Assembly (NCBI GenBank): GCA_015232855.1
Contig: JADFYW010000008.1
Coordinates: forward strand, 1 to 64,000
Origin: Fibrobacteria bacterium
GTDB lineage: Bacteria > Fibrobacterota > Fibrobacteria > UBA11236 > JADFYW01
Direction of reading: 5' to 3'
Length of the DNA: 64,000 bases
Part shown: positions 28,006 to 57,887 of the stretch, in pieces
How the letters are laid out: each line of letters starts with the position of its first letter
How positions within the stretch are numbered: position 1 is the first letter of the stretch
Position numbers and translations under genes: made by a program
Notes under the pieces: generated by a model
Database searches by the model: none
The model's input: only the letters and a program-made list of their open reading frames with translations
What the model was told of the DNA's origin: nothing

Positions 28006-29280
28006 ATGAATACCAAAAAATTACAATTATTTATTTCAACTATCTATATACTATCTTCTTTTGCTTTTAATCAAGTATCCCCATGTGTAGATTATTCCTG
28101 TGATAGTCTGGTCGTTAGAACAATATTGGACAGCAGTTTAGAAAATGAAAAAGCGGTCAGCCAGGTTACAGACACTATAAATGGAAGAATCACTATGGTA
28201 AATATAGTGCATTCGGGGCTCACTTCTTTGCCTAAAGAAATTGGTAAGCTTACCGCTTTAAAAGAATTACTTCTAACTGATAATAAATTGACCAATCTGC
28301 CAAAAGAAATTAATGCCCTTACTTCATTGCAACGTTTACAACTTAAAGGTAATCAGTTTAAAAGCTTACCGAACGTAATATTTGAACTCGTTGAACTGGT
28401 AAATTTGAATCTCGATCAAAATCAACTTACGAGTTTACCACCTGATATTAGTAAGCTAACACAATTGGCCATATTCAACGTGAATGATAACCTGCTGATA
28501 AACATCCCTATAGAATTAGGCAACATGACTTTATTAAAAAGTTTGGGCATTAAAGGTAACAAACTAACAAGCTTTCCTATTCAAATAACCAATCTCACGG
28601 AATTAAATGTATTGGCTCTTTCAGGAAATAATTTAAACACCATTCCTGCTTCAATTGGTAACCTCACTAAACTGACGTCTTTGAGCTTCTGGGATTGTCA
28701 GCTTACAAGTATACCTGTTGAATTAAGCAGCCTTATACTATTAAATCTATTAAATTTAAATGACAATCAATTGAACTCAATTCCAACTGAAATAGTTACA
28801 ATGCCAAATTTATATAGTTTGGGTGTAAGAAATAACTTCCTCACAAGTTTACCACCTGAAATAATAAAAAGAGAATTCTCCATATTAGTTGAAGGTAATC
28901 GTTTATGCAGTTTGCCAGATTCCATTGTTGCCTGGCTTGATAGTAATACCTTTGTGGATTCATCTACTACTTGGTTTGAAACCCAAAGACTGGATGGTTC
29001 AACTTATTGTGATGGTACTGGCAATGAATTACCCGTACTCAAGCCAAACGATGAGTTAAACATCCTTAATACACCTTTCAAAAAACAAATTACCTTTATC
29101 TTTTCCACTCATAAAAAGCTCAGTCTCTTTATTTATAACACCCAAGGTAAACTTGTTAATAAATCGGAGAATGTCGTTAATTCTGCAATATGGAATACCA
29201 CTAATCAGAATTCTGGAGTGTATTACCTAAAGGCAATTAGAGACCAGAAGCAAATTAATCGAAAATTTGTTGTAAAGTAA
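28006..29280 (+). CDS. Secreted leucine-rich-repeat protein with T9SS-like C-terminal sorting tail
   Basis: Signal peptide; about 10 LRR units (LTSLPPDISKLTQL...); tail LSLFIYNTQGKLVNKSENVVNSAIWNTTNQNSGVYYLKAIRDQKQINRKFVVK. Confidence 0.85.
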   Translation: MNTKKLQLFISTIYILSSFAFNQVSPCVDYSCDSLVVRTILDSSLENEKAVSQVTDTINGRITMVNIVHSGLTSLPKEIGKLTALKELLLTDNKLTNLPKEINALTSLQRLQLKGNQFKSLPNVIFELVELVNLNLDQNQLTSLPPDISKLTQLAIFNVNDNLLINIPIELGNMTLLKSLGIKGNKLTSFPIQITNLTELNVLALSGNNLNTIPASIGNLTKLTSLSFWDCQLTSIPVELSSLILLNLLNLNDNQLNSIPTEIVTMPNLYSLGVRNNFLTSLPPEIIKREFSILVEGNRLCSLPDSIVAWLDSNTFVDSSTTWFETQRLDGSTYCDGTGNELPVLKPNDELNILNTPFKKQITFIFSTHKKLSLFIYNTQGKLVNKSENVVNSAIWNTTNQNSGVYYLKAIRDQKQINRKFVVK

Positions 29281-30863: not shown

Positions 30864-33800
30864 ATGAAAAGATATCTTTCTTTCGTACTTATAGGGATAA
30901 TGACCATTACCCTTTTTAACTGCTTTTTAGATTCAACAAAAAGCAATGTGGACCAAACCGAGCCACCAATACCCGGCACAACCGGCTCTATCACCGGAAT
31001 GGTGTCTAATGAACTGGGAAGTGCGTTAAGGGGAGTATCAATTAGTGCTCAGGGCCCAAATGCCCGGTATTCTGCATTCAGTGACCAGATGGGGTCCTAT
31101 TCCTTTTTAGATATTCCAGGGGGGATCTATACGATAACCTTTAAAAAATATGGCTTTTCAGATGGAGCGTCACAATCTATAACCATTATCACGGGCGATA
31201 CCGTTATTGCCCAGGGAAGTGTACTCCAGAGCAATTTAATTACCATAAGGGGTCGTGTTATCATACCCGGACTGGCAAAACAGGGAGCCCGTTCGGCTCA
31301 AAAAGGCATAGGGATCGCTTTACCAAAACAATCCATTTCAACACAAACTGACAGTACTGGTACCTTCATTCTTGAAAATGTTGACCCCACCACCACCGAA
31401 AATATTGTTGCCGCAAAGAGTGGTTCAGGATGGGGTGACAAAACAGTAACACTCCTACCGGGTAAGGATACTGTTGAGGTGGAAATAACTCTTAATAAAG
31501 AAGGTGGTTCTATACAGGGAACGGTAGTAGGAATTGCCGATAAGCCATTACCCAATGTTCTGGTCGAGGCTATTGGGGGCGGAGTTTCAGCCATTACGGA
31601 CAGTGGAGGAAATTATCATTTAGCTAATGTTCCAAGCGGAGTCCCCATAGAGGTGGTAAGCGTGGAAAATACGAGCATTTCCGGGTTGATGGTGGATGAA
31701 GGCAGCCAGTTGGATGGGGTGGAACTTACACCTCAGGATACCATAGAACAAAACGGCATTAGTGTTTCAAGTAGTGAGTATGTTGTCCCTGATACGGGAA
31801 CCGTTACTCTCAGAGCTGATGTAAATCTAATGAACCGTTCCGGGTCGGAGAAGGTTTCCATGTTTATCTGGGATATGGATGGTGATGGTATATATGAAAC
31901 CGACGCCTCTGTTCCCACCGTTTCTTTAAATGAGGCGGGAAACAAATCTGTTTCTTATGGGGTGGTTACCGAATCTGGAGACAGTATAAAAGGAGCCCAA
32001 ATTGAAGTAAAGCGTGAACCGTCAATACCTGTTATCAAATTGGGGCAAGAGGTTATAGTGGATATAATCCCCCAGGAATTAACCAATTTGCCTGGAAATG
32101 CGACTTGTCTTTCAGGTGGCATCGTAAGCTATCAATGGGATTTTAACGGCGACGGAATTTTAGATTGGAAGAGACGTGATGGAGGAAAAGTAAAATACCG
32201 TTATTACAGAGCCGGTACCTATAAAGCTATGTTCCTGGTTATTTCATCTTCCGGCCAGCGTGATTCTGCATATATCGTCATAACGGTGAAGGACGTACCT
32301 CCCGCCTCATTACTCTCAGATGAAGTAGCTCAGCCTGAACTCATTAGCCCTCTCAGTGGAGACTTTGTAGGTACAGACGTGTTATTGCGCTGGACCAATG
32401 TGGGCGCAGAAAGCTACAGCGTTATTATGGACGAAAGTACCCCTCCGTCTACTATATTAAGCAATGGCATTACTGCCGACTATTTATATGTAACCGGTCT
32501 CACTCCCGGGATGACCTATTACCTGAAAATTATAGCCCATAAAGGTTTAAATTCAGCCGAATCGTTTTGTACAAAAATTATTGCCAGCATATCCAGTAAC
32601 ACCGCTCCTCATTTTCTGACCCTACCAGAAGCAATGTTGTCTACTGTGGTTTCTGGTAATGAGTACCGTGATACCGTCCAGGCAACTGATGCTGAAAACG
32701 ATATTCTGCAAATCAGCTTTTTGGATAGCGTCGCAGGTATGACTATTAATAATGGTATCTTAAGCTGGACCCCCGGATCTGCCGATACCGGTGTCCATTC
32801 AGTTTCTCTGGTAGCAGATGATGCCAAAGGGGGGCGAGACACCCTGACCTGGTCTGTTAGAGTGATTAATTCAAGCGATGCATCCCTTTTATCCCTTGGA
32901 GTTTCTGCAGGTACACTTTCTCCCGAATTTTCTTCTGCAACTGCTACCTATTCTGTTTACGTTGGTAATGAACAGGGGTCACTATTTATCAGTCCTGTGG
33001 TTTCTCACCCCGAAGCAAAAGTATTTGTCAATAGCATTACGGTTCCGTACGGCGATTCTACAGAAATTTCTCTTTCTATAGGGAGTAATCTCGTTACTAT
33101 TGATGTAACTGCTGCGGATGGGGTAAGCACAAAACGCTATACCGTCACCATAACCAGACTTGGGGCTGATAATGCCGTCCTGGCTGGTCTTTCATTATCA
33201 GCAGGGATGTTAACTCCTCGTTTTCAGCCAGACAGCATTTACTATTCAGCAGTAGTAGTAAATGAAATCGACAGCATAGCGATTCTTCCTACAGCGGGAG
33301 ACATTAACGCCTCCATTACCGTTAATGGAGTGGAGGTGCAATCTGGGACTTTGTCGGCATTGTTGCCTCTGAATGTAGGAAGCAATAGGATCAGTGTTAA
33401 GGTAACCGCCCAGAATCAGACAAGCAGCAATACCTATAGTATTAGCATCACCAGGCAGGGAAACTCTAATGCCTACCTCTCTGGTATCGCGATAGCCCCT
33501 GAGTCTCTGACGCCCCAATTCAATCCGACCGTACTTTCCTATTCGGCTGCCCTTAAATATACTGATTCTCTATTAAGGGTTGTTCCCACAGCTGTCTCCC
33601 CAAAAACAACCATTTCGGTAAATAACGATACCGTGATTTCCGGCACATCATCATTACATATTCCTTTGGCTGTAGGCGATAATCTGATAAATGTTATTAC
33701 CACTGCAGAAGACGGTATGACCAGGCTGACTTATTACCTGGTCATTACTCGTGAAGCTGAGCCGAATATTAATTTATCAGCACTTGTTTCTTCTACGGGA

Positions 33801-35852
33801 AACTGGACACCGGATTTTAATGGAAGCAGCGAACTCTATACGGTTACTGTTTCCAGCAGTATATCTCGTATTACCTTTACACCCACAGCTTTGGATTCCA
33901 CTGCCACGATTACTGTCGGTTCCCAAACGGTGAGCTCCGGAACGAGCTCAGACTCAATTAACCTTATTACAGGTAATAATACCGTAAATATTGTTGTAAC
34001 CGCAGAGAATGGGGTTACTAAAAAAACATATACCATTACGGTAAGGAGATTATCAAACTCAGCTACTCTTAACGCTCTTACCTCTTCCGGTGGGACTTTG
34101 TCACCAAACTTTAATTCTATCAACACATCGTATGTTTTTGCGGTCTCGAATAGTACTTCTAACGTTACCTTTACCCCTACAGCAACAGATTCAAATGCAA
34201 CGATTACTGTAAACGGGGACACCGTGATTTCGGGCAACGAGTCCAATCCCGTAAATTTAATCGTGGGAAACAATCCCATCCCGGTTGTTGTCACAGCTGA
34301 AGATGGAATTACTATCAGGACTTATACGGTTACCATAGACAGAGCGCCCAGTACTGATGCTACCTTATCTAACCTTATTGTTTCAAAAGGGTCCCTTTCT
34401 CCTGTATTTAGTTCCGATGAACCTAAATACATTGATTCTATACCCTGGTATGAATCTTACATAGCCTTCACTCCAACGGCTTCCCATGCCCAGGCAAAAA
34501 TTAAGATCGAAAATCAAGATGTTGTCTCCGGAGAGATGTCAGACTCGATTAATATTAATAAAGGAGGTCCCGTTCCCATAACAATCATCGTTACCGCCGA
34601 AGATGGTGTGACCTTAAAAGAATATGTGGTTATGGTAACTCCATTTAATTTGCCTCCAGAAATTACAGGAATGCAAAATGTTTCCATTGATTTCCGAGAG
34701 CCTTTTGAAAACATAAATCTTGATGATTATGTAGCGGACCCCGATCATCACGATAGCACTCTAATTTGGGAAGTTGATACTATTATTACGGATAACAATG
34801 GCTTTACGCCATTAGAAGTAACCATAGGATCTCCTTTGCATAACACCTCATTTAGTATACCAACAGGAGCTGACTGGTATGGATCCAATACTATTCGTTT
34901 TTCTGCACGAGACCCTCGTGGTGGCAGAGATACCGCAAGTGTTATCTATTCTATGTCTGGCTGGAAGTCTTATAGTCAACATATTTCCAGTAATATACAG
35001 ACTATTGCTTTTCCAAGTCCGGACACCGGATTTTTCATAGCCCTTGACGAGGAAATTATTTTCCGCACCATTGATCAGGGAAAAAACTGGAGTCCTATCC
35101 ATTTTAAGGATGCTGGTGCATCTCTCTATGATATGTATTTTCTCAATAAATCTATCGGTTGGGCTTCGGGAAGTAATGGACAAGTATTACGAACCAGCGA
35201 TGCTGGTGAAACCTGGAATTCTCCTACCACTACAAATAATCTGGCAACTTATTACGGTGTTCATTTTTCCGATGCAACTAATGGCTGGGTAGCAGGAATA
35301 AAAGGCGGAATCACGGTGCTTCCCTGTGTTGCGAAAACAACTAATGCTGGACTTACCTGGACAGAAACAACTACTCCTGGCACACCGCTTAACACGGTTC
35401 ATAGTTTCTCAACTGACGAAGCTTTAGTTGCGGGAAATGATGGTAACATTTACCGGACCGTTAACGGAGGTGCGTCATGGACAACAGTACATACCGGAAC
35501 CGAAAGTATCTATTCCATGTTTTTTATCGACTCTAAAAATGGTTGGGCCGGTGCGGCACATTCAGTTTATCGTACTACTGACGGAGGCCTGAACTGGACT
35601 GCATCTACTTTGGCTCCTGTCCAATACATATATCAAGTAAAGTCTGTACACTTTGTAAATAATCAGCTTGGATGGGCCATAGGTCATGGTCAGGTGCCTG
35701 GTGTTTACAAGACCATCGATGGCGGGGTAACCTGGACAGAAATCCCAAGTAATTATTCTATAAATTATGCGTTCTCCATTGTGGGCTTTGGTACTCACGA
35801 AGCAATAATCGCTAATGGTACTGATGTAAACAGATACGGACCTAATCCATAG
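30864..35852 (+). CDS. Giant lipoprotein: carboxypeptidase-regulatory-like, PKD/Fn3/Ig, tandem cadherin-like beta-sandwich repeats, C-terminal YCF48/BNR-like propeller
   Basis: Lipobox TLFNC; about 7 LS.G.LSPxFxxxxxxYxxxV...VTAEDGxTxxTYTxTxxR units; GWASGSNGQVLRTSDAGETW-type repeats. Confidence 0.9.
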   Translation: MKRYLSFVLIGIMTITLFNCFLDSTKSNVDQTEPPIPGTTGSITGMVSNELGSALRGVSISAQGPNARYSAFSDQMGSYSFLDIPGGIYTITFKKYGFSDGASQSITIITGDTVIAQGSVLQSNLITIRGRVIIPGLAKQGARSAQKGIGIALPKQSISTQTDSTGTFILENVDPTTTENIVAAKSGSGWGDKTVTLLPGKDTVEVEITLNKEGGSIQGTVVGIADKPLPNVLVEAIGGGVSAITDSGGNYHLANVPSGVPIEVVSVENTSISGLMVDEGSQLDGVELTPQDTIEQNGISVSSSEYVVPDTGTVTLRADVNLMNRSGSEKVSMFIWDMDGDGIYETDASVPTVSLNEAGNKSVSYGVVTESGDSIKGAQIEVKREPSIPVIKLGQEVIVDIIPQELTNLPGNATCLSGGIVSYQWDFNGDGILDWKRRDGGKVKYRYYRAGTYKAMFLVISSSGQRDSAYIVITVKDVPPASLLSDEVAQPELISPLSGDFVGTDVLLRWTNVGAESYSVIMDESTPPSTILSNGITADYLYVTGLTPGMTYYLKIIAHKGLNSAESFCTKIIASISSNTAPHFLTLPEAMLSTVVSGNEYRDTVQATDAENDILQISFLDSVAGMTINNGILSWTPGSADTGVHSVSLVADDAKGGRDTLTWSVRVINSSDASLLSLGVSAGTLSPEFSSATATYSVYVGNEQGSLFISPVVSHPEAKVFVNSITVPYGDSTEISLSIGSNLVTIDVTAADGVSTKRYTVTITRLGADNAVLAGLSLSAGMLTPRFQPDSIYYSAVVVNEIDSIAILPTAGDINASITVNGVEVQSGTLSALLPLNVGSNRISVKVTAQNQTSSNTYSISITRQGNSNAYLSGIAIAPESLTPQFNPTVLSYSAALKYTDSLLRVVPTAVSPKTTISVNNDTVISGTSSLHIPLAVGDNLINVITTAEDGMTRLTYYLVITREAEPNINLSALVSSTGNWTPDFNGSSELYTVTVSSSISRITFTPTALDSTATITVGSQTVSSGTSSDSINLITGNNTVNIVVTAENGVTKKTYTITVRRLSNSATLNALTSSGGTLSPNFNSINTSYVFAVSNSTSNVTFTPTATDSNATITVNGDTVISGNESNPVNLIVGNNPIPVVVTAEDGITIRTYTVTIDRAPSTDATLSNLIVSKGSLSPVFSSDEPKYIDSIPWYESYIAFTPTASHAQAKIKIENQDVVSGEMSDSININKGGPVPITIIVTAEDGVTLKEYVVMVTPFNLPPEITGMQNVSIDFREPFENINLDDYVADPDHHDSTLIWEVDTIITDNNGFTPLEVTIGSPLHNTSFSIPTGADWYGSNTIRFSARDPRGGRDTASVIYSMSGWKSYSQHISSNIQTIAFPSPDTGFFIALDEEIIFRTIDQGKNWSPIHFKDAGASLYDMYFLNKSIGWASGSNGQVLRTSDAGETWNSPTTTNNLATYYGVHFSDATNGWVAGIKGGITVLPCVAKTTNAGLTWTETTTPGTPLNTVHSFSTDEALVAGNDGNIYRTVNGGASWTTVHTGTESIYSMFFIDSKNGWAGAAHSVYRTTDGGLNWTASTLAPVQYIYQVKSVHFVNNQLGWAIGHGQVPGVYKTIDGGVTWTEIPSNYSINYAFSIVGFGTHEAIIANGTDVNRYGPNP

Positions 35853-36003
35853 TTTTTAAAATGTCCCAACAGCTTAGGATTGTACGATGTTAGCGTAAAG
35901 GTGTTGGAAAGGTGCAGTGATTGGGATGTTGAAGACTATTATGCAAGCAGCCCCGCAAAGGCCCTACTTGGTCATTTTAGCTTTTGTCATTTAATCTTTG
36001 AAA

Positions 36004-36825
36004 ATGAATTCCTTAAAAAAACCACACCTAACGATTCTTATCGCCACATGGAATAGAACAGAACTTCTTCGTAAGAGATCGCTGCCATCTCTAAGAAAAC
36101 AATCCTTTGCACCTTCACGAGTTATTTTAGTAGATAACTCCGAAAAGAAATTTCATATTCAGAATCAACAAATATTTGAAAAGTGCATACCATCAGAGTG
36201 GAACCCAGTATACATTAAAAATAGTTGCCATCAGGGGAATGCTTTTTCATGGAACATGGGATTAGAGTGGATCAGAAATAATACTCCTGAAACATGGGTG
36301 GCAATTCTTGATGATGACGATCTGTGGGAGCCCAATCACCTTGAACTATGCATTAATGCCGTTGAAACAAACCTGGATTGTGTTATTTCTGGTATCCAAA
36401 CAGTGTTAGATGGAACACTACTCAAACCGAAAAACATTGACCAATTTACAGTTTCAGACTTTTTAAGTGGAAATCCGGGGTGGGAAGGTTCAAATACTTT
36501 TTTGAGATATACAGCGTTTGAAGAAGTCGGTTTTTTTGACGAAGACTTATCCTGCACGCATGATCGAGACTTGGCTATCAGGTTACTTTCCAACTCCAAA
36601 TTTAAGTATAAGATTGTACCGAAGATAACGGTTAAACACTTTATTGAAACGAACAGATTATCATTGACAATCAGTCCTAAGAAAAAAGTTGGCATGATTC
36701 AATTCTGGAATAAGCATAATTCTAAAATGACCACTTTAAATAAGGAAGCCTTTCTTAAGAGAGCAAAAGATTTGTTTAACCTGGATAAAGAATTGTTTGA
36801 AGAGTATGTCATTAGCGAAATTTAA
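36004..36825 (+). CDS. Family 2 glycosyltransferase
   Basis: LTILIATWNRTELLRKRSLPSLRKQSF...ILDDDDLWEPNH. Confidence 0.88.
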   Translation: MNSLKKPHLTILIATWNRTELLRKRSLPSLRKQSFAPSRVILVDNSEKKFHIQNQQIFEKCIPSEWNPVYIKNSCHQGNAFSWNMGLEWIRNNTPETWVAILDDDDLWEPNHLELCINAVETNLDCVISGIQTVLDGTLLKPKNIDQFTVSDFLSGNPGWEGSNTFLRYTAFEEVGFFDEDLSCTHDRDLAIRLLSNSKFKYKIVPKITVKHFIETNRLSLTISPKKKVGMIQFWNKHNSKMTTLNKEAFLKRAKDLFNLDKELFEEYVISEI

Positions 36826-39800
36826 AGATCATTTATCCGGGCACAAACTGCATTATAACTCAGAAAATGTATTTAATGCTGAAATCGTTGTTTCTGTTGC
36901 CATGAAAAATGCTAGGCAATCCATTAGACAATGCCTTCTCTCAATTTTAAATCAGCAAAAGGTAAGTGACATTGCAATATTTCTTCTTGATGATAGTTCC
37001 GAAGATAAATGGGATGAAAAGATTATCGATCTTTTACGTTCACCACAATTAGTCTTATATCAGTGTCATGAAGGAAAAATAACCAGAATTAGAAATCTTC
37101 AATTAAAACTAGCCAAAGAAATTTTCCCTCTTTGTCGATGGTTTGGTAGGTTGGATGCTGATGATCAACTAGCACATAGATATTCCATTTTTGAAACCCT
37201 TGAACCGGTTTTAAACAAAAAAACACCTTTTAAATGGGTATTAGCAGGAAATACATTAAAGCTAGACGGAAAATTATTGAAGAGAAGAAACTTTCCATCA
37301 GAAAGCCTCTTAACAAGGAAGGGGTTGCTAAAGGTTACATTTGAAATGAGCCATGGGATTCCTGAAGCTGAGTTACCCTCTTGTAATCTTTGGTTACATA
37401 AAGAATTGAATGTTACCTATCCTTCGGTTCTAAGTGGTGAGGATCATTGGTTAGTCGCCTTTCTTTTGTTTTATAAATCAAATATTGGCCTGCTTCGAAC
37501 AACAACAACTTATGCATGTTATAATCTTGAAGGAATCGCGACAACAAATGCCAGGCAGTCAAATAGTTTTTTGTATTCGCGACAACTGTTACATAACAGT
37601 GTGTTAAACTGGCTTAATACTCATAATAATAACGGGAAAGAATTCGTTTTGGGCTGGGGAAAAGAATCCATTGTTTATAAAAAATGTGATTATATCTTTA
37701 AAATTTTCAATGAAGGAATTTTAACTGAAAAACAAGTAGACTGGTTGAAAGTAAACCTGAGGTCACCTTACTTCCCCGTTCCAACTTGGAAGAAAGAGAA
37801 CCATCATTGGATTGCAAAATACACTTTTCAAGAAATGAAGCCTTTGGAAACACTTTCTCAAAAGGCAATCAGCAGGTTTATTCAATATTGCTTGAATCAT
37901 AATATCGTATGTCTTGACTTTGCCGATTACAACTGCGGAAGCGTGAATGGAGAAGTATTTTATTTCGATATAGGCAGAGATATTCAATCATTTAAAATAA
38001 CCTATTTCCGGGATATGTGCGCACGAATCTATGTGTTATTTATTCTTAAGTGGACTCATTATGAACTAAAAAAAAACACGAAACGTTTTCGTGATAATGA
38101 AGAGGCGTTAAAGAATATTCCTGGTTTTGAGGAGTTTTATAAAAAAGAATTAACCTTATGGATAAGCAGTCAACAAAAAAATGAGCACCTGCCTCTTCTT
38201 ACTAATCAGGTAAAACGATCTGACAAGGTTAGTCTTCTGATTAAGTCCTGTGCTATGGACGCCCCTACTTTCGAAATTCAAATACATCACATTTTAGAGC
38301 AATTGTGTGAAACCCAAAGATATTTTGAATTAATTTTATTGATCGATTCCCGTAGACAAAATTTTTTAAGGGAACACAATAGTGGTAACTATGACAAGGT
38401 TGTTAAAATATCTCAAAATTTATTACGTGAAGGAAAAATTGATAGACTTTTAATTGCCCCTGATTCTCAAGATAAGCAGCTTGTAGAAAAAGTGTATAAA
38501 CATTGGTTTGGCGTTCATTCAAAACAAACACATACCTTTAAAGGGGTTCCTATATTTTCTCAACTTTGGGCATTTGAACAAGTACATACCCGATATGTAT
38601 TGCAACTTGATTGCGATGTAATGATTTGCCGTCGAAACCAGAAGCATGATTATCTTCATGATATGTTAACCGTAATTCAGGAAGAATCTGTGCTCTCTGT
38701 CGGGTTCAATATTCCTCACTCTATTGATTCAAAATTTATCGATTATCATTCTCCTTATGGCGGTTTCACTCCTGAGGTAAGATTTGGATTATTGGATTTG
38801 GAACGGATAAAATCCAAGAGACCTTTTCCGAATACTACCCATGAAGGATTTTTAACAAAAACCTGGTATCGTTCCATTGAGCAGTTCCAAAAACAAAATG
38901 GTTTGAAAAGTTTGCGCGGAGGAAGTTCTGAAAGCTATTACATTCATCCTCCAAACCTATATAAAAATGATATCTTTTATTATTTGAGACTAATGGATCT
39001 TGTCGAGCAGGACCAACTTCCAGAAATTCAGTATGGTAAGTGGGACATTATAGGTTCTCTAAACGATTGGAAATATCCCTCTAGGAACGAAGAATTGATT
39101 GTTCTTATCATGGGAAGAAATACTAACCGCTATCAACAGGAGCGATGTTTAAATTCCCTTTTTGCCCAACGCTTTAATGGATGGGGGGCCATCATAGTAG
39201 ATGATGCTTCTGCACAAAAATCGCAAATACATTTGATTAATTTAATATCTCAATACAAAAAACAAGTCACTTTGGTAAATAGAAAAACTAGATATGGAAA
39301 AGCAAAAAATGAGTGGGAATTACTCAACGAAATATGCATAAATCCAGAATCGCAAATCATTATTTTGGATATGGATGATTGTTTCATTCATAGCCGGGTT
39401 TTGGATCGAATTTATATTGAGTATAAAAAAGGATATGAAATTATCCTTGGGGGGATGTTTCGTTCGGATAAACCAATTAAACGTTATAAAGTACGTTTCG
39501 ATGATGTAAATAAACCGGATGCGGGAAATATTTGGATTCATTTGCGAAGCTTTCGTTTCTGTCTTTTCTCAAGGTTAACAACAGAGAATTTGAAGATTGA
39601 TGGAAAGTGGGCTGCATTTTGTGACGACTTCGCAATGATGATTCCCATGGTAAAACAAGCATCGCAGCATATCATGATAGAGGAATACCTCTACTTACAT
39701 GAAAGAAGCACTCCAAACACCAAAACAACCAGGCACATCAAAGACAAGGAAATATTTCATTTCACTAAAAGCAAATCAAGAGCGTTTAAAAAGAGAGCTA

Positions 39801-40552
39801 CTCGTTATTTCCCAAATTTAAAAAAAATAGAAATTGATATAACCTATGTTTGTAACTTGAGGTGTTCTGGCTGTGATCGTTCCTGTACTCAAGCTCCGGC
39901 TAATTTAAATATGCCCATTCAAATGATTGAGGAATTTATTTTTCAAACAGAAGAAAAAGGTATTCAATGGGAGAGTGTTCATGTCTTAGGAGGGGAGCCT
40001 ACTTTACATCCAAATTTTTTCGAAATTATTCGTTTCCTTGATAAATGGTTCACAAAAAATTCTCCAACTACTGAACTTAAAGTTATTAGTAATGGCTACA
40101 GCCAAAATAGTAGAGATATCTTAAGTCTAATCCCTGAAAACTGGCATCATTTTAAATCTTTTAAAAACTCAAATAATCCTCTGTATTTTGAACCTTTTAA
40201 TACTGCCCCAATAGATTTACCCGTTTGGAAAAAGGAGGATTTCTCGAAAGGATGTTGGATTTCCCAATTCTGTGGGATTGGACTTACTCCTCAAGGATAT
40301 TTTCCATGTGCGGTGTCAGGTGGCATAGAACGAATTTTTAGACTTGGAAAAGGATTAACGAATCTACCGCAAAGTGGAGAAATATTCAAAAGTATGTTCC
40401 CTTTTTATTGCCGCTTCTGCGGTCATTTTTTCCAAGATCAATATTATCCTCGCACGGAACGAAAAATCATTGGTGTTGATATCGCGAATATTTCTCATTC
40501 TTGGAAAGAAGCCTATTCTTTCTGGAGAGAGAAAGGGCCTATTGTATCTTAA
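36797..40552 (+). CDS. Multidomain protein: GT2 - kinase-like - GT-like - GT2 - radical SAM (SPASM/twitch-like C-terminus)
   Basis: FLLDDSS/GRLDADD; FVLGWGKESIVYK + VCLDFADYN + FYFDIG; LQLDCDVMICRR; IIVDDAS/ILDMDDC; CNLRCSGC with HVLGGEPTLHP; C-terminal CWISQFC...C and CRFC cysteines. Confidence 0.85.
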   Translation: MKSMSLAKFKDHLSGHKLHYNSENVFNAEIVVSVAMKNARQSIRQCLLSILNQQKVSDIAIFLLDDSSEDKWDEKIIDLLRSPQLVLYQCHEGKITRIRNLQLKLAKEIFPLCRWFGRLDADDQLAHRYSIFETLEPVLNKKTPFKWVLAGNTLKLDGKLLKRRNFPSESLLTRKGLLKVTFEMSHGIPEAELPSCNLWLHKELNVTYPSVLSGEDHWLVAFLLFYKSNIGLLRTTTTYACYNLEGIATTNARQSNSFLYSRQLLHNSVLNWLNTHNNNGKEFVLGWGKESIVYKKCDYIFKIFNEGILTEKQVDWLKVNLRSPYFPVPTWKKENHHWIAKYTFQEMKPLETLSQKAISRFIQYCLNHNIVCLDFADYNCGSVNGEVFYFDIGRDIQSFKITYFRDMCARIYVLFILKWTHYELKKNTKRFRDNEEALKNIPGFEEFYKKELTLWISSQQKNEHLPLLTNQVKRSDKVSLLIKSCAMDAPTFEIQIHHILEQLCETQRYFELILLIDSRRQNFLREHNSGNYDKVVKISQNLLREGKIDRLLIAPDSQDKQLVEKVYKHWFGVHSKQTHTFKGVPIFSQLWAFEQVHTRYVLQLDCDVMICRRNQKHDYLHDMLTVIQEESVLSVGFNIPHSIDSKFIDYHSPYGGFTPEVRFGLLDLERIKSKRPFPNTTHEGFLTKTWYRSIEQFQKQNGLKSLRGGSSESYYIHPPNLYKNDIFYYLRLMDLVEQDQLPEIQYGKWDIIGSLNDWKYPSRNEELIVLIMGRNTNRYQQERCLNSLFAQRFNGWGAIIVDDASAQKSQIHLINLISQYKKQVTLVNRKTRYGKAKNEWELLNEICINPESQIIILDMDDCFIHSRVLDRIYIEYKKGYEIILGGMFRSDKPIKRYKVRFDDVNKPDAGNIWIHLRSFRFCLFSRLTTENLKIDGKWAAFCDDFAMMIPMVKQASQHIMIEEYLYLHERSTPNTKTTRHIKDKEIFHFTKSKSRAFKKRATRYFPNLKKIEIDITYVCNLRCSGCDRSCTQAPANLNMPIQMIEEFIFQTEEKGIQWESVHVLGGEPTLHPNFFEIIRFLDKWFTKNSPTTELKVISNGYSQNSRDILSLIPENWHHFKSFKNSNNPLYFEPFNTAPIDLPVWKKEDFSKGCWISQFCGIGLTPQGYFPCAVSGGIERIFRLGKGLTNLPQSGEIFKSMFPFYCRFCGHFFQDQYYPRTERKIIGVDIANISHSWKEAYSFWREKGPIVS

Positions 40553-52724: not shown

Positions 52725-55700
52725 ATGAGAAAATTCAATTTTTATAGAATAATTATATTTGTCTGTTTAGCAACAGTATTATCATTAAGCGTCTTCAACT
52801 GCAAACTCAGTGAGCTCTTTGGAGAGGAAAAAGAAGAGCGGAACTACATTGAAATAGATGATTCTCAGCTTGATCCCCAAAAATATGATTCCCTAACCTT
52901 CATTGGCATAAACGAAAACAGTGATGATACCATATTGATATACACCTGGTATACGGGTGATGATGTACCAGAAAAGCTTTTCTACCCTGATGAACTGAAA
53001 GGAAATTTTACCGTCATAACCATCGGCATGAAAGACGGAAAAATCGTAGGTGCCCAGTCAACAACTATTGATATAGACAACCCAAATGACATAATAGATC
53101 CCATTGATATTGAAGAATTACTTAATAAGCCACCAAACGCCCCATCCGCGCCCATACCTGCACATGAATTCGGAAACAGAGATACGGTAATTACCCTTAT
53201 TTGGAGTTGTTCTGACCCAGATTCTGGTAACGAGCTCAGTTACGTTGTTTTTTTAGGCAAATCAAAAACTCCTGAGGATACACTCGAAAAGACGACTGAT
53301 ACCACAACAAAGGTTGATGGCCTGCAATTCGAAACAGACTATTACTGGCAGATAGCTGCACTTGATGGTACCGACACCACCTTAAGTCAGGTCTGGAAGT
53401 TTACCACAAAAATTAAACCTTTACTACATATATCCAGTCCGGACAGCACGGAACAATTACTGTCTGGAAGTATAGACACTATCAAATGGGAAACTACTGG
53501 AAACATTGAAAACATTAAAATTGAGTATTCAGCTGATAGCACAAACACATGGAAAGTAATTGAAAGTACTTTCAAAAATGACAGTGGTTACTATGTCTGG
53601 ACCGTTCCAGACACCAGTTCCAGCAACGCACAAATACGTATCAGTGACCTGTCCACTGATGTTTTTGATGAAAGTGAAGTTTTTTCTATTATCCCCATTC
53701 CGAATACCATAACCGTAACATACCCCAATGACAGCAATGTTGTTTGGGAATCGGGACAGTCAAATACCATTACCTGGAATTCAACCGGGGACATTTCTTT
53801 TGTAAAGATAGATTATAACCTGGGCGATGAAAATTGGATGATGATATCCAAACAAACCCAAAATGATGGCTCTTATGAGTGGAACATTCCTGATTCTGTT
53901 TTATCAAAAAAGGTTACCCTCAGGGTCAGTTCTCTCAACGGAGAAGTATCTGATACTAATGATAACATATTTGAGATAACTTCCCCACTCGTTGAAAAAG
54001 CTCTTGTTCTTTTAACTCCTAATGGGGGCGAAACTCTGCAGGTGGAAAGTTTCGTTAATATAACATGGACCTCCAGTGGAGAAATACCAAAAATAAAATT
54101 GCAATACACTAATGGGGTTGATTGGTTCACAATATCAGACTCGACTGATAATGATAGTTCCTATAGATGGACTGTTCCTGATATTGAATCACAATCAGTC
54201 AAAATAAAGATCAGTGACTTAAGCGACAGTATCACAGATGAAAGCGATGCCACAATTTCCATTACACACGCTGAAACACCTAAAACCATTACCCTGACCG
54301 TTCCTGATGGTAGGGAAGAATGGAAGGTTGGCAAGACCTATACACTTCGATGGGAAAATACCGGAGAAATTAATAATGTCCAACTGGAGTACAACACAGG
54401 AACCGGATGGAACGTTATTACTGATTCCACAGAAAATCTTTTCTTTTATAAATGGACCGTCCCCAATGTGATAGCCGACAGTGTTCTTGTGCGGGTAATG
54501 GACCATTCAGGTAATGCTACTGACCAAAGTAATGAATCATTTACCATCGTGGGAAGCGATAATACCCATTTAGAAGCACTTCAAATTTCAGCCGGTGAGC
54601 TTTCTCCAAAATTTGATTCTTCCGTAACGAGTTACAGCGTTTCAGTACCCAACACTGTTGCAAAATTCTCTGTAACACCAACGACCTTTGATAGTAACGC
54701 TACCATAACTATAGACGGTAAAACAATTAAAAACGGTATTGAATCTGATTCGGTCAACTTATCGGTTGACATCAACCCCATTCTTATCAAAGTGACTGCT
54801 CAAGACGGAAAGGTAATCAGGACCTACGAAATTAATGTCACCAGACTCCGTTCCGGCAATGCAAAACTTACTGAAATCACTCATTCTATTGGAAATCTTT
54901 CTCCGGTTTTTAACAAGGATTCCATGAACTATACGATATCCGTACCTTTCAGCATTCACTCCATTACGGTAGGGGCCAGTTCTGTGCATCCCAGTGCAGT
55001 TATTGGCTATACTTCTACGGGGAACATTTCTAATGAACACATAGCAGACCTCGAAGTTGGCACCACGTTAATCACCATCACTGTCACATCCGAAGATGCG
55101 AATACCATATTGGAGTATACCATTAAAATAACTCGTGCTCCCTCCGGTAATGCAGATCTGGTGGGAATCGGACTTTCAAGTGGAACACTTTCTCCCCAAT
55201 TTAATCAGGACAGCATAACCTATACTGTAGATATTGCAAACAACATATCGAAACTTACCTTAATGCCAACGCTAGCAGATTCCAACGCCGTCGTCAGAGT
55301 TGCAGGGGCGCCCATCAACTTGCAGTCTGGAGTAGTTATCAACAATATTACCGTCGGAGGCGTCCACAGCCTCACCATGGAAATAACTGCACAGGATGGA
55401 ACAACAAAGAACTATACCGTAAGTGCAAATCGGGCTCCTTCAGCCGATGCGGACCTTGCCAACATTGGTTTAACTCCATCAATTTCTTTAACCCCAGTCT
55501 TCCATAAAGACAGTAATATTTACCTCGTTTCCTATCCCTTTTCTATTACCACTACACATATTACTGCCGAGCCAGCAGAAACAAATGCAACCGTTTTTAT
55601 TGATAGTATTGAACAGCAGGCAGCCGATATTAGTTTGAGCGTAGGCGTAACAGCAGTCACTGTCATGGTTACGGCACAAGACGGGACAACTCATAAATTC

Positions 55701-57887
55701 TATAATCTCGAGATTACCAGGCAACCAAACACCGATGCCTCGGTATCTGCCTTGGCATTCTCTGTAGGAAATTTAGACCCTGCATTCACTCCTGATGTAT
55801 ATAATTATACCCTTGAGATTACAAACGATACAACCTCTGTTACCCTAAACGCAACCTTGAATGATTCTAATGCAACAATGGATCTGGGTGGTGTAACACT
55901 GCTATCAGGAGCCACCTCAAGCCCGGTAGATCTTAATGTTGGTGCTCAAGATGTTATTTTGAATACTTTGGCACAGGACGACACAACAACTTTGCGATAT
56001 ACGATAACTATTAACCGCCTTCCAAGCGAAAATGCTAATCTTGCCGGGCTTACTCTTTCGCCTGGTACTTTATCTCCTGGCTTTGGTGCCAGTACCATCA
56101 ATTATACTGCAAATATTTCATATTCGGCTACTTCTGTTGACATTACAGCCACCTTTGCAGATACTACAGCTACCATAGAGATTAATGGAAATACAGCTTC
56201 TTCTGGTGTGGCCTTCACTGTTTCTAACCTGTCTCTGTGGAACAATGTTATTCCCGTAACGGTAACTGCACAAAAAACCGCAATCAAAAAAACTTACACT
56301 GTTACCGTATTCAGAGATCTTTGGACGGATACCTACCCGAACTCAGAAACCATTACCGGCTATACAGCAAGAACTATTGTTCGGTTAGATGGCCCCGGGA
56401 AAATATACATGGTGGCTCTTGTGGCGGGAAGCAATACCCCTACCAGTACACAGGTTATGAAAGGACAGGATGATCAGGGCAATTCACAGTATCCAAGCAC
56501 TGATACACTTGAAATCGAGGCCGGAGTCACGTCTGCCCTTCAGGTAGAGGGTCTCGCCATTACCACAAGCTATGATCTTTATCTGGTAGCCGAAGACGAA
56601 AACCTAAACCTTCAGCCCACCCCCATAATAAGAACGGTCACTACTAATAGTAAGAACCCACCAACTATTCCCGTCCTCACAGCCCCTGCTCATAATGCAA
56701 CAAAACAGGAGCTTTCACTACTTCTTAGCTGGCAGGGAGGTGATCTTGATGGAGATGATGTAATCTACACGGTATATCTTGATACGGTCAATCCACCTGA
56801 AAATATAGTAGCTTCCCCGCTTACTGCTGAAACCCATCAGGCAAACAATTTGTTTGCAGGCAAAGATTACTATTGGAAAATTCAGGCATTTGATGGGAGC
56901 GCTAGTATGGAAAGTGTGACTAACAAGTTTTCAACCAATAATTCTCCACATACGCCATCAACCATCTATCCTTCTGATGGTGCCTTGGGCGTTGATACCG
57001 CTGCAGTCTTACAATGGAACGGAGGTGACATAGATGGTGATGCGGTTACTTATGAAGTTTTCTTGTCATCCTATACACCACCCGATCAGATGATAAAAAG
57101 TACAACTGCTACTACCCATACCACTTCAGGCCTGATTCTGGGCACAACCTATTACTGGTATGTCAAAGCTGATGACGGTATTTCTACTGCAGTATCCAGC
57201 CCTGTCTGGACATTTACCTGCATGGGCACCTTTACTGATTCCAGGGACAATCATGTCTATACGTATACAGAAATAGGGACCCAAACCTGGATGGCTGAGA
57301 ACCTGGCCTATCTGCCAAAAGTCGATGTCGAATCTTCCGGATCAAACGACTGGGAAGACAGCAGTTTTTATTATGTATACAATTATACTCCAACAGGTGC
57401 AGATGAGGCAGAAGAAATCACAAACGCCAAAGCTACTGTAAACTACCAAAACCGGGGAGTGTTGTATAACTGGCCCGCAGCTTTAAATGGTGAATCCCAC
57501 AGTTCAAGTTCACCGAGCGGAGTGCAAGGTGTATGCCCAGATGGCTGGCACCTGCCAAGTGATGCTGAATACAAGACGCTTGAAATGTATCTTGGAATGA
57601 CCCAAACTGTTGCGGATGGGACTGGAGATAGGGGAACCACAGAGGGTAAAATGCTAAAAGCAACTTCCTGGAGTGGAACCGACAACTACGGATTTTCTGC
57701 ATTACCTTCCGGATACCGAGACTGGGGTGGCGGATTTCAAAATCTCAGTTCTAGTTTCGGATTATGGACTGCGACTGGTAATGCATCTTCTGATCCTTAT
57801 ATGAGAATGCTCACTTCAGGTAATACAATCTTCCGCAGTATTTACAGCAACAGTTATGGTTATAGTATACGATGTGTCAAAAACTGA
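52725..57887 (+). CDS. Giant lipoprotein: Kre9/KNH-like repeats, cadherin-like beta-sandwich repeats, Fn3, C-terminal FISUMP domain
   Basis: Lipobox SVFNC; repeated GGETLQVESFVNITWTSSG...; LSPxF repeats; TQTWMAENLAYLP...CPDGWHLPSDAEYKTLE...SIRCVKN. Confidence 0.9.
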   Translation: MRKFNFYRIIIFVCLATVLSLSVFNCKLSELFGEEKEERNYIEIDDSQLDPQKYDSLTFIGINENSDDTILIYTWYTGDDVPEKLFYPDELKGNFTVITIGMKDGKIVGAQSTTIDIDNPNDIIDPIDIEELLNKPPNAPSAPIPAHEFGNRDTVITLIWSCSDPDSGNELSYVVFLGKSKTPEDTLEKTTDTTTKVDGLQFETDYYWQIAALDGTDTTLSQVWKFTTKIKPLLHISSPDSTEQLLSGSIDTIKWETTGNIENIKIEYSADSTNTWKVIESTFKNDSGYYVWTVPDTSSSNAQIRISDLSTDVFDESEVFSIIPIPNTITVTYPNDSNVVWESGQSNTITWNSTGDISFVKIDYNLGDENWMMISKQTQNDGSYEWNIPDSVLSKKVTLRVSSLNGEVSDTNDNIFEITSPLVEKALVLLTPNGGETLQVESFVNITWTSSGEIPKIKLQYTNGVDWFTISDSTDNDSSYRWTVPDIESQSVKIKISDLSDSITDESDATISITHAETPKTITLTVPDGREEWKVGKTYTLRWENTGEINNVQLEYNTGTGWNVITDSTENLFFYKWTVPNVIADSVLVRVMDHSGNATDQSNESFTIVGSDNTHLEALQISAGELSPKFDSSVTSYSVSVPNTVAKFSVTPTTFDSNATITIDGKTIKNGIESDSVNLSVDINPILIKVTAQDGKVIRTYEINVTRLRSGNAKLTEITHSIGNLSPVFNKDSMNYTISVPFSIHSITVGASSVHPSAVIGYTSTGNISNEHIADLEVGTTLITITVTSEDANTILEYTIKITRAPSGNADLVGIGLSSGTLSPQFNQDSITYTVDIANNISKLTLMPTLADSNAVVRVAGAPINLQSGVVINNITVGGVHSLTMEITAQDGTTKNYTVSANRAPSADADLANIGLTPSISLTPVFHKDSNIYLVSYPFSITTTHITAEPAETNATVFIDSIEQQAADISLSVGVTAVTVMVTAQDGTTHKFYNLEITRQPNTDASVSALAFSVGNLDPAFTPDVYNYTLEITNDTTSVTLNATLNDSNATMDLGGVTLLSGATSSPVDLNVGAQDVILNTLAQDDTTTLRYTITINRLPSENANLAGLTLSPGTLSPGFGASTINYTANISYSATSVDITATFADTTATIEINGNTASSGVAFTVSNLSLWNNVIPVTVTAQKTAIKKTYTVTVFRDLWTDTYPNSETITGYTARTIVRLDGPGKIYMVALVAGSNTPTSTQVMKGQDDQGNSQYPSTDTLEIEAGVTSALQVEGLAITTSYDLYLVAEDENLNLQPTPIIRTVTTNSKNPPTIPVLTAPAHNATKQELSLLLSWQGGDLDGDDVIYTVYLDTVNPPENIVASPLTAETHQANNLFAGKDYYWKIQAFDGSASMESVTNKFSTNNSPHTPSTIYPSDGALGVDTAAVLQWNGGDIDGDAVTYEVFLSSYTPPDQMIKSTTATTHTTSGLILGTTYYWYVKADDGISTAVSSPVWTFTCMGTFTDSRDNHVYTYTEIGTQTWMAENLAYLPKVDVESSGSNDWEDSSFYYVYNYTPTGADEAEEITNAKATVNYQNRGVLYNWPAALNGESHSSSSPSGVQGVCPDGWHLPSDAEYKTLEMYLGMTQTVADGTGDRGTTEGKMLKATSWSGTDNYGFSALPSGYRDWGGGFQNLSSSFGLWTATGNASSDPYMRMLTSGNTIFRSIYSNSYGYSIRCVKN

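Follow-up and report, generated by a model that had tools for sequence, protein, structure and literature searches.

The stretch of DNA analysed here (the window, 64,000 nucleotides of contig JADFYW010000008.1) comes from a Fibrobacteria bacterium, a relative of the plant-fibre degrader Fibrobacter, and encodes a long fusion protein in which three glycosyltransferase (GT) modules are combined with a kinase-like module and a radical SAM (rSAM) domain. Together with a fourth GT module encoded just upstream, this protein forms a cassette that we believe is probably a horizontally moving, self-contained cytosolic multi-enzyme, one that assembles a short, defined glycan and tailors it by radical chemistry. 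The modules carry recognisable folds and motifs, keep a common order among their relatives, are co-inherited and are sporadically distributed.

The frame at 36797-40552 on the forward strand is uninterrupted, comprising 1251 codons without a single internal stop. Its earliest possible start is the TTG at 36797, the start used in an earlier reading of the bare sequence (hereafter the original prediction); the likelier one is the ATG at 36806, codon 4 of the frame, and starting there the fusion gene shares 20 bp with the upstream GT2 gene (35998-36825). The intact 1251-aa fusion that had been proposed is borne out, apart from its probable start. Because the same modules recur in the same order at scattered loci in many genomes, the fusion is not an accident of assembly, and neither a frameshift nor a misassembly was found. 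The features of the cassette in the window, all on the forward strand, are as follows:

35998-36825: GT2a, a separate GT2 gene of 275 aa (Pfam Glycos_transf_2, 1.8e-14); its homologue in the relatives is the N-terminal module of their proteins.
36806-40552: the GT2b-kinase-GTx-GT2c-rSAM polypeptide (open frame, ATG start, relatives with the same modules).
36860-37609: GT2b, residues 22-271 (Pfam Glycos_transf_2).
37610-38209: kinase-fold module, residues ~272-471, with K302, D374, N379 and D391 (PDB profile, AlphaFold2 (AF2) model, Foldseek, motif table).
38210-39070: GTx, residues 472-758, with DCD as its DxD motif (fold model, alignment).
39080-39760: GT2c, residues ~762-988, with DMDD and an acid-base-like CDD motif (sub-cutoff NCBIfam GT2, motif table).
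39806-40549: rSAM core and Twitch-like domain, residues 1004-1251 (Pfam PF04055, alignment).
39851-39874: CxxxCxxC of the SAM-binding [4Fe-4S] cluster (C1019, C1023, C1026), invariant in 14 sequences.
40253-40420: predicted auxiliary-cluster cysteines C1153, C1159, C1171, C1205 and C1208, invariant in 14 sequences.

A protein search of 150 related genomes returned two with the same modules on two adjoining genes, one of them Fibrobacter sp. RGIG5144. Scans of genome contigs and viral contigs with single sequences gave no matches; an alignment-based contig scan recovered 15 loci, hosted by Opitutales, Bacteroidales/Paludibacteraceae, Candidatus Gallipaludibacter, Treponema, Myxococcaceae, Methylovulum psychrotolerans, the metagenome-assembled genome (MAG) of an archaeon, and Fibrobacter. 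The scattered loci with this module set fall in six bacterial phyla, plus the archaeal MAG. A phage origin was rejected, since phage records and viral contigs were without a match. Two carriers are genomes of named strains, M. psychrotolerans Sph1 and Salinivibrio kushneri TGB19, the latter with the cassette on a mobilizable 607-kb replicon (NZ_CP114591.1), and they make the chemistry of the cassette directly testable. The gene names in the one annotated relative are 'glycosyltransferase', 'hypothetical protein' and 'radical SAM protein'.

The common order is GT2a, an insert in some loci, GT2b, kinase, GTx, GT2c and rSAM, and it is partitioned differently among genes. The whole set, including an epimerase as the insert, resides on a single chain in Opitutales (L025, 1902 aa) and in L026 (1879 aa). 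In Fibrobacter, Treponema, Bacteroidales and others a GT2a-(epimerase)-GT2b gene is followed by a kinase-GTx-GT2c-rSAM gene, and in the window a GT2a gene precedes one for all other modules. rSAM forms a separate gene in Methylovulum (L031), in the myxobacterium (L083, where it precedes GT2b) and in S. kushneri TGB19. The first copy in the archaeal MAG (L036) has lost the DxD of GT2c; the same contig holds a second, decayed cassette (L036:16299-20917) of GTx-GT2c and rSAM fragments with stops. A conserved protein of ~260-290 aa lies between the GT and rSAM genes of Salinivibrio (L086:11915-12685, reverse strand) and Methylovulum (L031:12893-13771, reverse strand); the two are 31% identical and match no Pfam family, and the presence of VGNG and S/T-G motifs makes a sialyltransferase-like fold a candidate. 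L037 and L038 are without the GT2b-like and rSAM modules. They belong to a sister architecture lacking rSAM, a single chain of 1618-1725 aa in the order GT2a, an unassigned segment, kinase, methyltransferase, GTx and GT2c:

L037:5075-9943, methyltransferase after the kinase.
L038:2669-7525, methyltransferase after the kinase.
L084:349-5526, methyltransferase after the kinase, assigned by eye.

Pairwise identities of the six modules correlate across loci for all module pairs (Spearman rho 0.79-0.93), which indicates that the modules are inherited as a set. In a tree of GTx the window copy clusters with those of Methylovulum and the myxobacterium (96/94), in both of which rSAM is a gene by itself; the gut clade, with its fused rSAM, stands apart. 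The topology implies either that rSAM was fused on at least two occasions or that a single fusion was later split. Constant order despite shifting gene boundaries, correlated divergence and recurrent fusion are as expected of an obligate multi-step enzyme, and in the 'Rosetta stone' sense the recurrent joining is strong evidence that the GTs, the kinase fold, the epimerase and rSAM act on one product. The assembly-line character that had been ascribed to the fusion holds; the phosphotransfer and the surface glycan proposed with it are less secure, and the original interpretation is borne out in part.

Carriers are rare. They make up 3 of the 126 genomes of the window's class. Larger scans scored no more than each genome's top candidates and therefore give lower bounds: at least 1 carrier among 393 genomes of the Bacteroidales order, at least 2 each among 398 of the Treponema class and 229 of the Methylovulum class (in both classes one of the two is a lone rSAM), and at least 1/197, 1/189 and 4/191 for another three groups. 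Every count includes the centre genome. The GC content of the cassette is 0.335-0.36, compared to 0.37-0.46 in the other window genes measured, and in Salinivibrio two transposase genes lie immediately upstream. The sporadic carriers, the AT-rich composition, the co-evolving modules and the Salinivibrio transposases point to a cassette that moves horizontally as a set.

All three GT predictions for the fusion were upheld. GT2b is a Pfam Glycos_transf_2 domain (residues 34-127, E 3e-14), joined in Fibrobacter to GT2a instead. GTx, the segment that had been called a second GT-like module, matched no Pfam family; its AF2 model (predicted local distance difference test, pLDDT, 88.6) retrieves GT-A glycosyltransferases including COLGALT1 and POMGNT1 with a Foldseek probability of 1.00, and its DxD is present in 17 of 17 alignment rows. 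Judged by modelled fold and DxD it is a GT-A-fold glycosyltransferase, and it may found a new glycosyltransferase family. GT2c gives sub-cutoff NCBIfam GT2 matches in the window, the Pfam GT2 threshold is passed only by its Fibrobacter homologue (1e-8), and its DxD is kept in all relatives except the archaeal copy. By PF00535 profile plus DxD, GT2a and GT2b are GT2 members in the window itself, and GT2c is one as a Pfam domain of its own only in the homologue. The original prediction overlooked GT2a in the adjoining gene; fused to the remaining modules in Opitutales and Bacteroidales relatives, it is the fourth GT module of the same set.

The kinase-like module has no Pfam match. Against the PDB, a profile of 14 sequences matches protein kinases (E 1.4e-4); with the module's AlphaFold model (pLDDT 87), Foldseek retrieves RIO, APH(2'')-Ia and Ser/Thr kinases at a probability of 1.00. 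The window copy combines this fold with the invariant lysine K302, the catalytic aspartate D374, N379 and the Mg-binding aspartate D391, in agreement with the predicted kinase-like fold and catalytic-loop residues; the Lys, the Asn and the Mg-binding Asp are kept in 14/14 aligned rows.

The original module list also missed a nucleoside diphosphate (NDP)-sugar epimerase that is fused in relatives. In six loci an insert of ~325 aa separates GT2a from GT2b; L025, L030 and L033 were tested, and in all three it is a GalE-like NDP-sugar epimerase below equivalog cutoffs (PF01370 E 1.4e-54 in L025). Epimerase genes lie adjacent to the cassette in L028, L029, L032, L036, L037 and L038, the downstream one being orthologous among L028/L029/L032 (62%) and L036 (40%). 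UDP-glucose-dehydrogenase-like genes were seen near L025, L027 and L029.

The last module belongs to the radical SAM superfamily: PF04055 matches residues 1015-1106 above its cutoff (30.2 against 29.5 bits, E 6e-7), CxxxCxxC and GGEP are invariant among all aligned relatives, and the extra C-terminal cysteines that had been noticed comprise five invariant residues. Their spacing, CX33CX2C, is near the CX33CXC of the SkfB Twitch domain (PMC6231123), whereby a single auxiliary Fe-S cluster is expected in the C-terminal domain. A Twitch domain would have cysteines on both sides of a hairpin and, ~33 residues further, a C..C pair; the Twitch model NF033640 (N_Twi_rSAM) scores 33.2 against a cutoff of 170. 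Even similarity networks fail to predict function among Twitch/SPASM enzymes (PMC6231123), and the sequence does not allow the type of radical reaction to be predicted.

Twitch domains are also found in peptide maturases, SkfB among them, and the PDB entry that the rSAM profile matches best is 5wgg, a 'radical SAM domain protein' (3.7e-8, core only) that we take to be a peptide maturase. The modules might accordingly serve protein or peptide glycosylation, the GTs acting on a cytosolic protein or small peptide which rSAM/Twitch modifies in the manner of a ribosomally synthesised and post-translationally modified peptide (RiPP). No exporter was found nearby, as would suit a cytosolic target (the flank scan, by hydropathy and ABC motifs, covered 17 loci with flanks of ≤10 kb, several of them much shorter on short contigs). 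A linked precursor peptide and a RiPP recognition element (RRE), the marks of a RiPP cluster, were both missing from the flanks and family scans: there is no conserved small open reading frame except among close relatives, and no RRE match in Pfam or NCBIfam. The Fibrobacter carrier does have, at L039:2545-4645, a 248-aa repeat protein rich in Cys, Gly and Ala next to a TIGR04463-like SPASM maturase (461 bits against a cutoff of 525), likely a RiPP system unrelated to the cassette; this peptide system has its own maturase and was not seen at other cassettes. We consider a peptide product improbable.

Under the preferred reading, a tailored glycan, GT2a, GT2b, GTx and GT2c would most likely add sugars in turn to a common acceptor in four non-processive steps, the epimerase fused or adjacent in many relatives would supply a donor, and the kinase-fold module, situated between the second and third GT, would phosphorylate a sugar. 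The radical SAM/Twitch domain may then effect a late radical change at a sugar C-H/C-OH (oxidation, epimerisation or deoxygenation), and fusion would hold the intermediates together. We infer sequential sugar transfer, phosphotransfer, a radical reaction on a sugar and a cell-surface product. In keeping with a cytosolic enzyme, the cassette proteins have no predicted membrane spans, with the sole exception of one segment in L036. Tentatively, and with a good deal less conviction, we go further and envisage a mobile glycan 'megasynthase', a single polypeptide in some bacteria, that couples transfer, phosphorylation, epimerisation and late rSAM chemistry and yields a new class of radically modified phosphoglycan, common to gut, saline and freshwater bacteria that are only distantly related.

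Several observations weigh against this reading. The catalytic Asp of the kinase module, present in the window copy, is Asn in seven relatives (L031, L036, L037, L038, L083, L084 and Salinivibrio) and hence not conserved family-wide; the proposed phosphotransfer agrees with the fold and residues of the window copy, but as a general property it is doubtful and not assured across the family. A module without the catalytic Asp may instead bind nucleotides or scaffold the complex. Relatives of rSAM occur without recognised GT neighbours in a gammaproteobacterial-class genome (L050:7663-8802), which suggests that rSAM may serve an independent function; two tandem rSAM genes in a spirochaete-class genome (L049:7195-9134) likewise have no GT neighbours recognised by these modules. 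No epimerase was recognised beside the window copy, the closest protein of related fold being a short-chain dehydrogenase encoded 11 kb upstream, and no initiating sugar-phosphate transferase was recognised. Finally, the flanks scanned (≤10 kb, often less) hold no flippase, polymerase or ABC exporter, and the surface destination of the product is therefore unsupported: the predicted surface glycan is an inference that the genome-neighbourhood comparison did not strengthen. What the flank scan flagged was a TIGR00697 transporter, an SbcC-like ATPase, two large proteins resembling the resistance-nodulation-division type, a phosphate symporter and a further two membrane proteins.

These genes could also be ordinary variable surface-polysaccharide (capsule or O-antigen) genes fused by chance, with export encoded elsewhere and no common product. 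The GT2 and epimerase content, the sporadic, AT-rich and horizontally acquired nature of the cassette and the exclusively diderm phyla of its bacterial hosts would all fit, and O-antigen modules are known to be variably distributed over polypeptides (PMC11231755). Set against this, the whole set is co-inherited in constant order whereas typical O-antigen loci have shuffled GTs, Wzx, Wzy and an ABC exporter are missing from the flanks scanned, and the Bacteroidales cassette genes lie singly or in pairs amid unrelated genes. A chance fusion of this kind is unlikely.

In Fibrobacter and Treponema a divergent queuosine-precursor transporter gene (TIGR00697, VUT/QPTR) overlaps the cassette start:

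L022:14992-15621, transporter gene.
L027:1409-2035, transporter gene.
L029:1483-2142, transporter gene.

Since these cassette-linked copies are closer to one another across two phyla (61-62% identity, Fibrobacter against Treponema) than to VUT in other Fibrobacteria genomes (29-38%), the transporter travels with the cassette; the Fibrobacter and Treponema genomes concerned also have a second copy. This raises the idea of a glycosylated nucleoside or 7-deazaguanine pathway in which an imported queuosine-precursor base is glycosylated and modified by the cassette. The gene was not found in the window genome (80% complete) nor in seven other carriers, so a queuosine link was rejected as a general function, and no queuosine-synthesis genes were recognised beside the cassettes; we regard such a pathway as very improbable. 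An ordinary queuosine locus, a VUT gene beside queC- and queF-like genes assigned by eye, was seen in a same-class genome (L075:7313-9350).

Three large secreted surface proteins surround the cassette in the window:

28006-29280: leucine-rich repeat protein with a type IX secretion system (T9SS) tail.
30864-35852: cadherin-like/YCF48 protein, 1662 aa.
52725-57887: Fib_succ_major protein, 1720 aa.

The Methylovulum copy is bordered by a Druantia-like helicase region on one side and by type I-E cas genes on the other. A role in defence was rejected, as no such setting was seen at other copies and the window cassette lies among T9SS surface proteins; a Dpd-type DNA 7-deazaguanine system at Methylovulum was rejected because the helicase is DruE-like and the DpdJ matches are weaker.

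We know of little on rSAM enzymes that act on assembled glycans, and of none that is covalently part of a chain-building glycosyltransferase; a search of the open-access literature for the GT-kinase-rSAM architecture found no description of it. The individual modules have clear counterparts. With SpsA, COLGALT1 and POMGNT1 the GT modules share the GT-A fold and DxD, and PF00535 is found in GT2a, GT2b and the homologue of GT2c; GTx aligns with solved GTs by fold only, outside any Pfam family. The kinase-like module has its fold, invariant Lys, Asn and Mg-binding Asp in common with RIO and APH(2''), but is embedded in GT polypeptides and has Asn for the catalytic Asp in the seven relatives. The window rSAM shares CxxxCxxC and GGEP with Twitch/SPASM enzymes (BtrN, MoaA, SkfB; NF033640), and its C-terminal cysteines, spaced CX33CX2C, resemble those of a Twitch domain with one auxiliary cluster, but it scores far below every NCBIfam equivalog and is fused to glycosyltransferases. 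At the level of the whole system the closest parallels are WbdA/WbdD and the Klebsiella pneumoniae O7/O12 enzymes, where, as in the cassette, several GT modules and a eukaryotic-like kinase reside on a few long polypeptides (PMC3482155, PMC11231755). WbdD is a kinase-methyltransferase that caps a glycan (PMC3482155), a pairing that resembles the sister family of L037, L038 and L084, and the polymerase and terminator modules of modular O-antigen enzymes are spread variably over polypeptides (PMC11231755), with gene boundaries varying between systems as they do here. The cassette differs in having rSAM, which is not mentioned for these systems, in the epimerase fused in its relatives, in lacking a Wzm/Wzt ABC exporter in the flanks scanned and in showing no sequence-family match to WbdD. 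By analogy, it would work like the modular O-antigen polymerase-terminators without being one of them, and it extends the known modular glycan-assembly enzymes with a new combination of modules.

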